Assembly (NCBI RefSeq): GCF_017358165.1
Contig: NZ_CP071446.1
Location: 1,612,001-1,676,000, forward strand
Length of the DNA: 64,000 nucleotides
DNA from: Thermosipho ferrireducens
GTDB lineage: Bacteria > Thermotogota > Thermotogae > Thermotogales > Fervidobacteriaceae
Direction: 5' to 3'
Below the pieces are notes generated by a model. It worked only from the letters and a program-made list of their open reading frames with translations, did not search any database and had not been told where the DNA came from. The stretch's first letter is position 1, and every line of letters begins with the position of its first letter. Positions 25,430 through 30,258 of this stretch are shown here, in pieces. The translations under genes were made by a program, and so were the position numbers.

Positions 25430-27163
25430 ATGGTTAAAATTCACATCAACAACCGTGAATATGAGGTCCCGGAAGACATTACAGTACTGGAAGCTGCTCA
25501 AAAGGTTGGTATACAAATCCCCACTTTGTGTCATCATCCGGAATTAGAACCAATAGGTGCATGTAGAGTATGTGTTGTTGAAATTGAAGGTTCCAGAACA
25601 CTCCAGCCGGCCTGTACAACAAAAGTAGTTGACGGTATGAAAATAAAAACTTATTCCGATAGAGTGGAAAATGCTGTAAAATTCAATCTCTCGCTTATCA
25701 TGGCAAATCATCCCAATGATTGTATGTATTGTGAAGCTGATGCAAGATGTGAACTAAAAAAACTTGTCCACAAATTTGACGTAGAAGAAATTTTCCCAAA
25801 ATCAGATATTCCTGACATATTCGATGATAGTAGTCCTTCTATTCAAAGAGACTTATCAAAATGTATTAAATGTCAAAGATGTGTAAGAGTATGTAGTGAA
25901 ATTCAGGGTATAAATGTATACTCAATGATTGATAGAGGTTACCATACACTTCCACAAACTGCATTTGATGCTCCCGTTTACGAAACAGATTGTATTTCCT
26001 GTGGTCAATGTTCATACATCTGTCCTGTTGGTGCCATATACGAAACACCCGACTGGAAAAAGGTACTTAAAATCCTTGAAAGAAAAGAAAAAATACTCGT
26101 AGCCCAAACAGCTCCATCAACAAGAGTTGCAATAGGGGAAGAATTTGGAATGGAACCTGGTTCTGTAAGCACCGGTAAAATGGTAGCAGCCTTACGAAGA
26201 TTGGGGTTTGACTATGTATTTGACACTAACTTTGCCGCTGACTTAACTATTGTAGAAGAAGGAACAGAATTAATTGGAAGGCTCAAAGAAGGTGGCCCAT
26301 TCCCAATGTTTACAAGCTGTTGTCCAGGCTGGATTAATTTGCTCGAAAAACTCTACCCGGAATTCATTGAAAATGTATCCAGTGCAAAATCTCCTCAGCA
26401 AATGATGAGTGCTGTTATAAAATCGTATTTTGCAGAAAAAATCGGCGTGAAACCAGAGGATATAATAATAGTTTCAGTTATGCCATGTACCGCGAAAAAA
26501 GATGAAATTAAAAGACCGCAGCAAAAAATCAACGATATACAATCAACAGATTATGTAATTACTACAAGAGAACTTGCCAAGCTCATAAAACTTAAAGAAA
26601 TTAACTTCTCTGGATTGCCAGATGAAGAGTACGATAATCCACTTGGCGCTTCAACAGGTGCTGCTATCCTATTTGGTGTTACAGGTGGTGTCATGGAAGC
26701 GGCACTGAGAACCGCATACGAAATTCTCACAAATGAAAAATTACCAAAAGTTGTCTTCGAAGATGTTAGAGGCCTTGATGGAGTAAAAGAAGCTGAAGTT
26801 GATGTCAAAGGTAAAAAAATAAAAATAGCAGTTGCTCATGGGATGGCAAATGTAAGAAGACTGCTTGATGATTTAAAAGAAGGTAAAAGATATTACGACT
26901 TTATTGAAATCATGGCATGTCCCGGTGGTTGTATAGGTGGTGGCGGACAACCTAAGAGTCTTGATCCAGAAATCTTAAGAAAACGTGCTGAAGCTATTTA
27001 TAGTCTTGATGAGAGAAGCACAATTAGAAGATCACACGAAAATCCATACATAAAACAACTTTACGAAGAATTCTTGAAAGAACCTAATAGCCATCTTGCA
27101 CACGAACTACTACACACGTACTATACTGATAGATCAAAGAAAAAAGTGGAAGTTTCACAATAA
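25430..27163 (+). CDS. hydA: [FeFe]-hydrogenase catalytic subunit (HydA-type)
   Basis: 577 aa. Modules in order are: [2Fe-2S] domain (C34, C45, C48, C62); His-ligated cluster (H94, C98, C101, C107); two [4Fe-4S] clusters (C145-C155 and C188-C198); and the H-cluster domain with TSCCPGW (C297, and the proton-transfer C298), MPCTAKK (C353) and ACPGGCIGGG (C497, C501). All active-site cysteines are present, so it should be a true enzyme rather than a Nar1-like homologue. It ends without the C-terminal [2Fe-2S] extension of the trimeric T. maritima HydA (TM1424 as I recall). No hydB or hydC is in the window. AAGGAGGG precedes the ATG. Confidence 0.93.
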   Translation: MVKIHINNREYEVPEDITVLEAAQKVGIQIPTLCHHPELEPIGACRVCVVEIEGSRTLQPACTTKVVDGMKIKTYSDRVENAVKFNLSLIMANHPNDCMYCEADARCELKKLVHKFDVEEIFPKSDIPDIFDDSSPSIQRDLSKCIKCQRCVRVCSEIQGINVYSMIDRGYHTLPQTAFDAPVYETDCISCGQCSYICPVGAIYETPDWKKVLKILERKEKILVAQTAPSTRVAIGEEFGMEPGSVSTGKMVAALRRLGFDYVFDTNFAADLTIVEEGTELIGRLKEGGPFPMFTSCCPGWINLLEKLYPEFIENVSSAKSPQQMMSAVIKSYFAEKIGVKPEDIIIVSVMPCTAKKDEIKRPQQKINDIQSTDYVITTRELAKLIKLKEINFSGLPDEEYDNPLGASTGAAILFGVTGGVMEAALRTAYEILTNEKLPKVVFEDVRGLDGVKEAEVDVKGKKIKIAVAHGMANVRRLLDDLKEGKRYYDFIEIMACPGGCIGGGGQPKSLDPEILRKRAEAIYSLDERSTIRRSHENPYIKQLYEEFLKEPNSHLAHELLHTYYTDRSKKKVEVSQ

Positions 27164-27204
27164 ATTTTGTGTATAAAAAAATAAAAATTAATAGTTCTTT
27201 CTGA

Positions 27205-27314
27205 GGTGAAGGGTTATCTGTTTAACCTGACACCAAGGAAAGGGGAAATCAAAACTTTAAGAAAATTATTATACCCCCTTCCTTGGTGTCAATAAAGGAA
27301 GGGGGTTATTTATA
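27205..27314 (+). promoter_or_regulatory. Candidate RNA switch before the hydrogenase-maturation genes
   Basis: Two exclusive stems can form. Stem A pairs 27228-27245 with 27274-27291 (11 bp, then AA/TT, one A·C mismatch, then GGGG/CCCC). Stem B pairs 27274-27284 with 27295-27305 (11 perfect bp, 10-base loop). The 3' arm of stem B is AAGGAAGGGGG, the ribosome-binding site of the next gene, and is followed by TTATTT. A small hairpin (GGTTA/TAACC, 27212-27227) and GGTG (27205-27208), which could also pair with CACC at 27231, precede it. It matches no riboswitch class that I recognise. Confidence 0.65.
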
Positions 27315-27569
27315 GTGAATACAAGTGAAAGGTATTACACAGTAGACATAATTGTGAATGACAGAGACAAAGCGTATGATAAGGTAAATGAAATACTCCA
27401 TGATTTTGCAAAATATATAAAACTGCGAGTTGGTTATCCCGTAATTGAAGAGAACTTCGCAGTAATCTTTATCATATTTAAAGCCACAAATGATCTTCTT
27501 GGAAATTTTACAGGAAAACTTGGCCAAATCCAAAATGTGCGTGTAAAAAGCATTCCTATAACAAAGTGA
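27315..27569 (+). CDS. TM1266-type iron-only hydrogenase system regulator
   Basis: 84 aa ferredoxin-like/ACT-like fold protein of the putative [FeFe]-hydrogenase regulator family (TM1266 type). It has alternating strands and helices (YYTVDIIVNDRDKAYDKVNE; FAVIFIIFKATND). Family membership rests on the fold pattern and its position before hydG. The start is GTG at 27315, nine bases after the ribosome-binding site that stem B of the upstream RNA would cover. The regulatory mode is not known to me. Confidence 0.82.
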   Translation: MNTSERYYTVDIIVNDRDKAYDKVNEILHDFAKYIKLRVGYPVIEENFAVIFIIFKATNDLLGNFTGKLGQIQNVRVKSIPITK

Positions 27570-27580
27570 GGTGATACATA

Positions 27581-28996
27581 ATGTTTGTATTTGTGAAAGA
27601 AAAACTTGAAGAGAAAACATTTATACCTGAAGAAAAGATATTTGAGCTCTTAGAAACAACACAAAAACCTGATCCTAAAAGAGTAAGAGAAATTCTTGAC
27701 AAATCACTAAACAAGCAAAGATTAGAACCAGAAGAAGTAAGCACTCTCTTAAATGCTGACAGTGAAGAACTGTGGGAAGAAATCTTTTCAGCTGCTAGAA
27801 AGCTCAAAGAAAAAGTGTACGGAAACAGAATTGTTTTGTTTGCGCCGCTATATATTGGTAACGAATGCTACAACGACTGTGAATATTGTGGTTTCAGAGT
27901 TTCTAATAAAGAGGTTCTGAGAAAAACTTTAAGTATAGATGATTTGAGAAAAGAAGTTGAAGCCCTTGTCAGTAAAGGCCATAAAAGACTCATAGTTGTT
28001 TATGGCGAACACAGCAAATATTCCCCGGAGTTTATAGCCAAAACAATTGATGTTATTTACAACACAAAAGTTGGTAACGGCGAAATCAGAAGGGTAAATG
28101 TTAACGCCGCACCACAAACCGTCGAAGGATACAAAATAATTAAGAATGTTGGGATAGGCACATTTCAAATTTTCCAAGAAACATATCATAGAGAAACGTA
28201 TAGAAAAATGCACCCGCGAGGTCCAAAATCAAATTACGCGTGGCGACTCTATGGGCTTGACAGAGCTATGCTTGCAGGAATAGACGATGTTGGAATAGGA
28301 GCATTATTTGGTTTATACAACTGGAAATTCGAAGTTATGGGATTGTTGTACCACACGATTCATCTTGAAGAACGTTTTGGCGTGGGGCCACATACTATAT
28401 CTTTCCCGAGAATAGAACCAGCTGTAGGTACGCCTGTTGCACAAAGACCTCCATATCAAGTAAACGATGAAGAATTCAAAAAGTTAGTAGCTGTTTTAAG
28501 ATTAGCGGTACCCTACACCGGTATGATATTAACAGCACGTGAACCTGCCGATTTAAGAAGGGAAGTGCTGAAACTTGGAGTCTCTCAAATAGATGCGGGA
28601 TCAAGCATAGGAGTGGGTTCATATTCTGAAAAAGATCCTGAGGTAATTAAAAAGAGTCAATTTATTCTTGGCGATAATCGTTCACTTGATGAAGTAATTC
28701 GAGAACTGCTTCAGGAAGATTACATACCTTCTTTCTGTACAGCCTGTTATAGAGCTGGAAGAACAGGGGAACATTTTATGGAATTTGCTATTCCAGGTTT
28801 TGTAAAAAGATTTTGTACCCCAAACGCTATATTTACTTTAAGAGAGTATTTGAATGATTATGCTTCACAAAAAACTAAAGAAATTGGATATAAACTTATT
28901 GAAAAAGAACTTGAAAAAATTGATGAAAAACGAAAATCTTCCGTAATCGACGGACTCAAAAAAATAGATAAAGGTGAAAGAGATGTCAGATTTTAA
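27581..28996 (+). CDS. hydG: [FeFe]-hydrogenase maturase HydG (radical SAM tyrosine lyase)
   Basis: 471 aa. Splits tyrosine to supply the CO and cyanide ligands of the H-cluster. The radical-SAM cluster motif is C96-x3-C100-x2-C103 (CYNDCEYC). The HydG-specific C-terminal cluster is C386-x2-C389-x22-C412 (SFCTACYRAG...RFCTPN), which separates HydG from ThiH. GAGGTGATA lies before the ATG. It overlaps the next small gene by 14 bases. Confidence 0.95.
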   Translation: MFVFVKEKLEEKTFIPEEKIFELLETTQKPDPKRVREILDKSLNKQRLEPEEVSTLLNADSEELWEEIFSAARKLKEKVYGNRIVLFAPLYIGNECYNDCEYCGFRVSNKEVLRKTLSIDDLRKEVEALVSKGHKRLIVVYGEHSKYSPEFIAKTIDVIYNTKVGNGEIRRVNVNAAPQTVEGYKIIKNVGIGTFQIFQETYHRETYRKMHPRGPKSNYAWRLYGLDRAMLAGIDDVGIGALFGLYNWKFEVMGLLYHTIHLEERFGVGPHTISFPRIEPAVGTPVAQRPPYQVNDEEFKKLVAVLRLAVPYTGMILTAREPADLRREVLKLGVSQIDAGSSIGVGSYSEKDPEVIKKSQFILGDNRSLDEVIRELLQEDYIPSFCTACYRAGRTGEHFMEFAIPGFVKRFCTPNAIFTLREYLNDYASQKTKEIGYKLIEKELEKIDEKRKSSVIDGLKKIDKGERDVRF

Positions 28997-29240
28997 AAAA
29001 ATTAAAGAAATTCTGGAAAAAATAGCAAGAAAGTATAACTGCAAAATCTGGATATGTGAAAAAATAGGAAAAAGAATTTCCTTTATAGAAGGGCTCAAAG
29101 CAGGAAAAGAATTTTTCATGCCACCTCAAATTGTTTACGAAGATAATGAAATAATAATATTTACCGAAAACCTGACAGAAACAAACGATGAATTTCACAC
29201 CTTATTAAAAGAGGTGATTTACCTTGTCCATAATAGATAA
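28983..29240 (+). CDS. Small protein between hydG and hydE
   Basis: 85 aa from the ATG at 28983, which has AAAGGTGA at good spacing. It overlaps hydG by 14 bases and hydE by 17 bases, so it is certainly co-translated with them. It has two cysteines (CKIWIC) near residue 20 and an alternating alpha/beta pattern with no membrane segment. T. maritima has a small gene (TM1268) in the same slot as I recall, so the position looks conserved. Its function is unknown, and a role in H-cluster maturation is an inference from context only. Confidence 0.75.
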   Translation: MSDFKKIKEILEKIARKYNCKIWICEKIGKRISFIEGLKAGKEFFMPPQIVYEDNEIIIFTENLTETNDEFHTLLKEVIYLVHNR

Positions 29241-30258
29241 ACTTGTAACCAGAAGAGATTCAGTAACTCTTGAAGACCTTGAATATCTACTTTCAACGGA
29301 AAAATACGATGAGATTATATTTGAAAAAGCGGACGAAATTCGAGAAAAATATGTTGGAAAAGAAGTGCACTTAAGGGCCATTATTGAGTTTTCAAATATT
29401 TGTACGAAAAGCTGTCTTTACTGCGGGTTAAGAGCGGAAAATAAAAAGCTAAAAAGGTATAGAATGTCTCCTGAAGAAATAATAAAAAGAGCTGAATTAA
29501 TAGCAGAAAAAGGTATCAAAACAATTGTTTTGCAATCAGGAGAAGATCCATACTATACAACTGAAATAATAGAATATTTAATAAAAGAGATCAAGAAGTT
29601 TGATGTAGCAATAACCTTAAGTATAGGCGAAAGGAAGTTTGAAGAATACAGAATATGGAAAACCGCAGGTGCCGATAGATATCTTATGAGACATGAAACA
29701 GCATGTCCTGAGTTATACAACAAACTTCATCCAGATGATTCTTTTGAAAACAGAAAAAAGCATCTCTTTGAACTTAAGAAAATCGGCTATGAAACAGGAG
29801 CAGGTTCTATGGTAGGATTGCCCGGGCAGGGCCCGCGTGAACTTGCAATGGACATACTCTTTACTCGCGAACTAGATGCTGACATGGTAGGAATTGGACC
29901 ATTTATTCCAAATCCAGATACACCACTAAAAAATGAAAAAGGTGGTGATTTAAACACCACACTAAAAGTCATTGCTTTGACACGCTTGCTGTTACCTACA
30001 GCAAATATTCCTGCCACCACTGCGATGGGAAGTATACATCCTTTTGGCAGACAAAAAGCACTAAAATGTGGAGCTAATGTTATAATGCCAAACCTCACAC
30101 CAAATCCTTATAGACCAAATTACACGTTATATCCAGGAAAGATTTGTCTTTTTGAAGCAGACACAGCCTGTGTGGAATGTGTAAAAGGTATGATTAAGGG
30201 ATTAAGTCGAAACGTTGGAAAAAGTTATGGTTTCCGTGTAAAATTAACTAATGTTTAA
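29224..30258 (+). CDS. hydE: [FeFe]-hydrogenase maturase HydE (radical SAM)
   Basis: 344 aa. The radical-SAM motif C60-x3-C64-x2-C67 (CTKSCLYC) is followed by the HydE-type C-terminal cysteines C308, C316 and C319 (ICLFEADTACVEC), which hold an accessory cluster in the Thermotoga enzyme. It acts with HydG on H-cluster assembly. The start is TTG at 29224, six bases after GAGGTGA. The third maturase, HydF, is not in the window. Confidence 0.95.
   Translation: MSIIDKLVTRRDSVTLEDLEYLLSTEKYDEIIFEKADEIREKYVGKEVHLRAIIEFSNICTKSCLYCGLRAENKKLKRYRMSPEEIIKRAELIAEKGIKTIVLQSGEDPYYTTEIIEYLIKEIKKFDVAITLSIGERKFEEYRIWKTAGADRYLMRHETACPELYNKLHPDDSFENRKKHLFELKKIGYETGAGSMVGLPGQGPRELAMDILFTRELDADMVGIGPFIPNPDTPLKNEKGGDLNTTLKVIALTRLLLPTANIPATTAMGSIHPFGRQKALKCGANVIMPNLTPNPYRPNYTLYPGKICLFEADTACVECVKGMIKGLSRNVGKSYGFRVKLTNV

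Follow-up and report, generated by a model that had tools for sequence, protein, structure and literature searches.

The window analysed here is a 64,000-nucleotide stretch of the Thermosipho ferrireducens genome (contig NZ_CP071446.1, positions 1,612,001 to 1,676,000). It holds a leader between an [FeFe]-hydrogenase gene and a set of hydrogenase maturation genes, with the following features in window coordinates.

25430-27163, + strand: hydA, [FeFe]-hydrogenase (PF02906), 5' of the leader; downstream of the element in some relatives
27196-27243, + strand: conserved double tandem-G.A hairpin (models R1, R2 and R3; covariation in relatives)
27197-27202/27237-27242, + strand: P1 of the hairpin
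27203-27204/27235-27236, + strand: first G.A loop of the hairpin
27205-27208/27231-27234, + strand: inner helix GGTG/CACC of the hairpin
27209-27210/27229-27230, + strand: second G.A loop of the hairpin
27211-27216/27223-27228, + strand: P3 of the hairpin
27228-27245, + strand: 5' arm of stem A (anti-sequestor), overlapping the 3' half of the 48-nt hairpin
27274-27291, + strand: shared segment, the 3' arm of stem A, whose first 11 nt also serve as 5' arm of stem B
27295-27305, + strand: 3' arm of stem B, including the Shine-Dalgarno sequence AAGGAAGGGGG of the TM1266-family gene
27315-27569, + strand: TM1266-family putative regulator with a GTG start, proposed RNA-binding effector (TIGR03959; PF21699; PDB 2NZC)
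27581-28996, + strand: hydG, predicted controlled gene (TIGR03955, E 4.9e-160)
28974-29240, + strand: small ORF between hydG and hydE
29224-30258, + strand: hydE, predicted controlled gene (TIGR03956, E 1.7e-109)

Profile matches to the flanking genes placed the leader between hydA and hydG/hydE, as a preliminary description of this DNA had read from the letters. The TM1266-family gene scored 98.7 bits (E 1.2e-28) against TIGR03959, above the curated cut-off of 60.8 bits, and thus belongs to that family. The small ORF at 28974-29240 matched no Pfam or NCBIfam family; similar ORFs lie between hydG and hydE in six Thermotogota loci.

We found that stem A joins 27228-27245 with 27274-27291 through 13+4 pairs and one A.C mismatch (duplex -32.2 kcal/mol), and that stem B joins 27274-27284 with 27295-27305 through 11 perfect pairs (hairpin -20.9 kcal/mol). 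The preliminary description, which had counted 17 and 11 pairs and called the two stems mutually exclusive, was right on these points, with 27274-27284 common to both stems. It was also right that stem B buries the ribosome-binding site of the TM1266-family gene: AAGGAAGGGGG lies inside the stem, 9 nt upstream of the GTG start at 27315. The leader folds at -48.6 kcal/mol, compared with -32.1 +/- 3.9 kcal/mol for shuffled sequences (z -4.2), and none of 200 shuffles was as good. The TTATTT pointed out after stem B is present, but it is a poor terminator tract, and the terminator check found no consensus terminator at this tail of the T. ferrireducens leader; burial of the ribosome-binding site is therefore probably the main effect of stem B in this species. 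In most relatives, a proper U-tract follows the corresponding hairpin.

The first reading had missed a third structure, the hairpin at 27196-27243, which competes with stem A; it shares its 3' half with that stem, so that the leader contains three competing structures. The element consists of the P1 stem and two tandem G.A-type 2x2 loops on either side of a short helix of free sequence, which has 3 or 4 bp depending on the lineage, and its consensus, CUGA-N4-RAGG-(variable P3 and loop)-CUGA-N'4-RAGG, is pseudo two-fold symmetric. The alignments showed that the G.A loop bases and their closing pairs are nearly invariant, while the inter-loop helix and the apical loop are free. The GGTG and the GGTTA/TAACC hairpin, earlier suggested as a sensing part, do belong to the conserved element but make up only a portion of the 48 nt, and conservation is lowest in the GGTTA/TAACC stem.

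Minimum-energy folds of the growing transcript passed from the hairpin (-22.0 kcal/mol, transcript to 27245) to stem A (-34.1 kcal/mol, to 27291) and then to the hairpin with stem B (-44.2 kcal/mol, to 27306); for the full-length leader, the hairpin with stem B reached -44.5 kcal/mol, compared with -37.1 kcal/mol for the stem A state. These energies are the behaviour of an attenuator. A hairpin that stays held during transcription of 27274-27300 would let stem B win; otherwise stem A would be given a time window. The leader thus has the mutually exclusive structures of a transcription attenuator or Shine-Dalgarno-sequestering switch, one of them predicted to block expression.

The same hairpin was found upstream of TM1266 genes in 27 of 30 Thermotogales loci; in the remaining three, TM1266 directly adjoins hydA, and in both hydA-TM1266 loci examined the hairpin lies 5' of hydA. 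Among 25 sequences, both partners varied in 9 of the 14 pairs, 95.7% of cells were paired, and the covariation score was 0.287 compared with 0.124 after shuffling. A larger set of 57 sequences gave 93.8% paired cells and a score of 0.428 compared with 0.220, with the inner helix swapping G-C, A-U, C-G and U-G. The clostridial versions scored 0.824 compared with 0.245. The covariation in 9 of 14 pairs, seen in two independent sets, lies far above shuffled and slid controls, and both marks of a structured cis-regulatory RNA, namely covariation above controls and a recurrent place before related genes, were found. The conservation and covariation that the preliminary description had proposed to look for in Thermotogota relatives are thus present, and the competing stems recur as well. 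We are highly confident that the leader is a regulatory RNA, and the results strongly support a switchable leader that controls the hydrogenase maturation genes. Of the earlier wording, a riboswitch or other leader switch, the switchable leader stands on cross-phylum conservation, covariation and recurring competing stems; the ligand-sensing riboswitch reading was not carried by the results.

Downstream of the element, we found three arrangements. In the first, a terminator or ribosome-binding-site hairpin is accompanied by a competing anti-terminator formed from the element's own 3' half: by our own criterion, a terminator follows 62 of 73 copies, 43 of which have a significant competing duplex. 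In the second, the RAGGAGG of the element is itself the Shine-Dalgarno sequence of the gene; 14 copies were flagged (for example L089, L092 and L269), only one of them with a competing duplex. In the third, seen in Mesoaciditogales, the AGGAGG of the element serves a short leader ORF, and in five loci such ORFs run into or lie beside a terminator before hydG or ABC genes, which gives the appearance of translation-coupled attenuation. Six copies are counted in both the terminator group and the flagged group, because in Mesoaciditogales the leader-ORF Shine-Dalgarno sequence in the element occurs together with a terminator. Judging from this anatomy, the folded or held hairpin would leave the genes off under all three arrangements. 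Leaders of the Pseudothermotoga type have a TATAAT-like hexamer about 17-23 nt upstream of the element, which places the element close to the RNA's 5' end.

Using a covariance model, we found the element in 64 of 103 Thermotogota genomes, in some of them in two copies, before TM1266(-hydG-hydE), hydF(-aspartase), hydG, hydE and hydA. A pattern scan of genome contigs gave matches before TM1266 in Ignavibacteriales and Neomarinimicrobiota; in the latter, 17 of 245 genomes carry the element, and 10 of the 11 inspected copies precede TM1266. In Clostridia, TM1266 is encoded in 174 of 291 genomes, and the regions upstream contain diverged versions, in which the double-G.A layout is kept but the helices differ in sequence. 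A strict structural scan found such versions in 16 of 70 clostridial upstream regions, compared with 2.2% of mononucleotide shuffles and 1 of 70 reverse strands. A model built from clostridial sequences only ranked the T. ferrireducens element first in the 64 kb (E 0.0014) and recovered many other Thermotogota copies, although it is not a fully independent homology test, because its training sequences were picked after the Thermotogota shape was known. The gene context of the clostridial matches outside the training set is independent support: by our own count, TM1266, hydG, hydE or hydF follows about 19 of the 23 with E up to 0.001 and about 32 of the 44 with E up to 0.01. Most of the others fall within coding genes; two Butyrivibrio matches and nine low-scoring clostridial R3 matches were discarded for lying inside coding sequence. 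The element thus precedes H-cluster maturation genes in at least four phyla.

Several side observations were made in these loci. Tandem pairs of the element occur in five clostridial TM1266 leaders. A single element-like match (L237, E 1.5e-4) precedes a gene for a Rex-type redox repressor; the clostridial genome concerned has no detected TM1266. In several phyla, the element or the TM1266 gene is immediately followed by transporters: NMT1/SsuA-like ABC systems (L093/L262, L141, L226 and L239), an ABC permease (L252), ECF S components (L132 and L233) and TonB receptors (L066 and L269). In four loci, the same element precedes both hydF and the aspartase-like gene behind it. A role for ammonia-lyases in making the H-cluster bridge has been reported (PMC11736057), and the hydF-aspartase pairing fits that role.

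Searches with Rfam 15 showed no family above its gathering threshold at the leader, in agreement with the earlier statement that no riboswitch class is known for this position; the only match in the whole window was a TPP riboswitch (RF00059, 57151-57261, + strand, 76.4 bits), and related loci gave tRNA only. With permissive thresholds, the leader alone gave only sub-threshold matches to microRNAs, snoRNAs and the like, which were rejected as chance. In PyrR regulation, the protein product of the operon holds an early hairpin, blocks the anti-terminator and lets the terminator form. The logic proposed here would be analogous to that of PyrR leaders and similar protein-bound attenuators, but the element is a symmetric double-G.A helix, its protein partner is putative, and the PyrR site (RF00515) scored 24.2 bits (E 0.23) with a gathering threshold of 54. 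Riboswitches of the TPP type are likewise off-switches before biosynthesis genes, and sometimes before NMT1-like ABC or ECF genes, but the leader matches neither TPP nor any other Rfam class and has no obvious pocket. Kink-turns and other tandem-G.A motifs share the tandem G.A pairs beside a short helix, a common protein-binding feature; the alignments showed two symmetric 2x2 loops instead of the 3-nt bulge followed by tandem G.A pairs that marks a kink-turn. No description of the element was found in the open-access papers searched, and a structured-RNA discovery paper covering Thermotogae (PMC8632094) does not mention hydrogenase. Having neither an Rfam 15 match nor a description in the open-access literature, the element is here called a new RNA family, a device of known type with a new architecture and possibly with a new kind of protein partner, TM1266.

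The TM1266 protein (84 aa) was predicted to adopt a beta-alpha-beta-beta-alpha-beta fold (pLDDT 95), with 2NZC, the T. maritima TM1266 protein, as the first match of the model, followed by NikR-C and ACT domains; its conserved residues include R6, R38 and K78. The model resembles the C-terminal sensor domain of NikR, but TM1266 contains no DNA-binding domain such as the ribbon-helix-helix of NikR, and the proposed target is RNA. A second, weak TM1266-like protein, under the family cut-off, is encoded outside the window in the same genome (G000:C1:10125-10343) and occurs in most Thermotogota. TM1266 scored above the curated cut-off in all 64 element-bearing Thermotogota genomes, and of the 103 genomes searched, the covariance model found the element in none that lacks TM1266. 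Of the 70 hydG-positive Thermotogota genomes, five lack TM1266, and none of these five, all of one genus, has the element; a sister species in that genus has both. The joint loss was given modest weight, because the gene and its leader are usually adjacent and it may be a single deletion. Eight genomes in which the two are unlinked still carry both, which is more telling than the joint loss. In T. neapolitana grown under CO2 compared with N2, the TM1266 homologue, hydG and hydE rose 5.98-, 6.39- and 7.52-fold, while hydF rose only 1.28-fold (PMC7039931); the induction is consistent with a co-regulated TM1266-hydG-hydE operon.

Computation has established that the hairpin is conserved and covaries, that stems compete, which genes make up the regulon and that TM1266 occurs together with the element; from this we infer a direction of switching, a binding by TM1266 and a signal as follows. 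The 48-nt symmetric hairpin (27196-27243) would form first during transcription. Left unheld, its 3' half would be invaded by 27274-27291 to give stem A, so that the Shine-Dalgarno sequence stays free and the genes are on; if the hairpin were held, 27274-27284 would pair with 27295-27305 as stem B, which would bury the Shine-Dalgarno sequence, turn the genes off and, in most relatives, also end transcription. The holder would be a TM1266 dimer contacting both G.A sites that flank the short helix; reporting the supply of H-cluster, TM1266 would repress its own operon and other maturation genes. We consider this reading, a cis-regulatory RNA switch of the H-cluster regulon whose hairpin is held by a TM1266 dimer reporting H-cluster supply, to be marginally probable. 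TM1266 as the effector, suggested by its co-occurrence with the element and by the symmetry of the RNA, has an even chance of being correct; it is favoured because a protein dimer would read a two-fold symmetric site and leave the helix sequence free. Several points speak against the TM1266-held switch: a rigid dimer would poorly tolerate an inner helix of 3 or 4 bp; the joint loss in one genus may be one event; immediately upstream of many clostridial TM1266 genes, no element could be detected; in a clostridial assembly (G119), the element stands before hydG-hydF and no TM1266 was detected; and hydF changed little in T. neapolitana.

The G119 assembly would suit a true riboswitch, in which a small molecule or a metal complex, such as a building block of the H-cluster, is the direct ligand of the double-G.A hairpin and TM1266 is just one regulated gene. 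The switch anatomy is that of riboswitches, some clostridial leaders have tandem copies, and the regulon joins biosynthesis genes with uptake systems (NMT1-like ABC, ECF and TonB), as the regulons of cofactor riboswitches do. Conservation, however, is limited to the symmetric pair of G.A loops and the base pairs that close them, leaving no obvious ligand pocket, since the inter-loop helix and the apical loop are free in sequence, and the element was found in no Thermotogota genome lacking TM1266. We regard the riboswitch as a serious possibility on the less probable side; the RNA's symmetry and its occurrence together with TM1266 speak at least as much for a protein-bound switch. It is improbable that a different protein, for example a maturase, reads the hairpin, or that the hairpin is a ligand-free attenuator depending on temperature or kinetics: the competing states do arise by folding alone, and HydF, HydG and HydE are likewise always near the element, but a plain folding switch needs no conserved G.A loops, and lineages of differing growth temperature, Clostridia among them, carry the element. 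A DNA operator or ordinary terminator with no RNA sensing, which the TATAAT-like hexamer often found just 5' of the element and the commonness of hairpins before genes might suggest, is very improbable, and the operator was rejected, because pairing and not sequence is conserved, with covariation, G-U pairs and conserved G.A mismatches indicating selection on RNA, the competing anti-terminator is conserved too, and the element itself holds the Shine-Dalgarno sequence in several lineages.

Within the reading of a TM1266-held switch, a bolder version is unlikely but would reach further: TM1266 would be the founder of a novel RNA-binding regulator family, as a free-standing sensor dimer of NikR-C/ACT type that reads a symmetric double-G.A hairpin, senses the [2Fe] H-cluster or one of its organometallic intermediates, and controls H-cluster synthesis and the uptake of that cofactor or a precursor in at least four phyla. 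TM1266 is annotated as a putative regulator in many hydrogen producers, and the open-access literature searched gave no mechanism for it. The regulation of [FeFe]-hydrogenase maturation in bacteria is little understood, and a defined RNA target makes both this regulation and TM1266 directly testable. The linked transporters hint at an unrecognised scavenging step for a nutrient or cofactor. Should an H-cluster intermediate prove to be the signal, the RNA would offer a ready sensor of maturation and a means of engineering hydrogenase expression.
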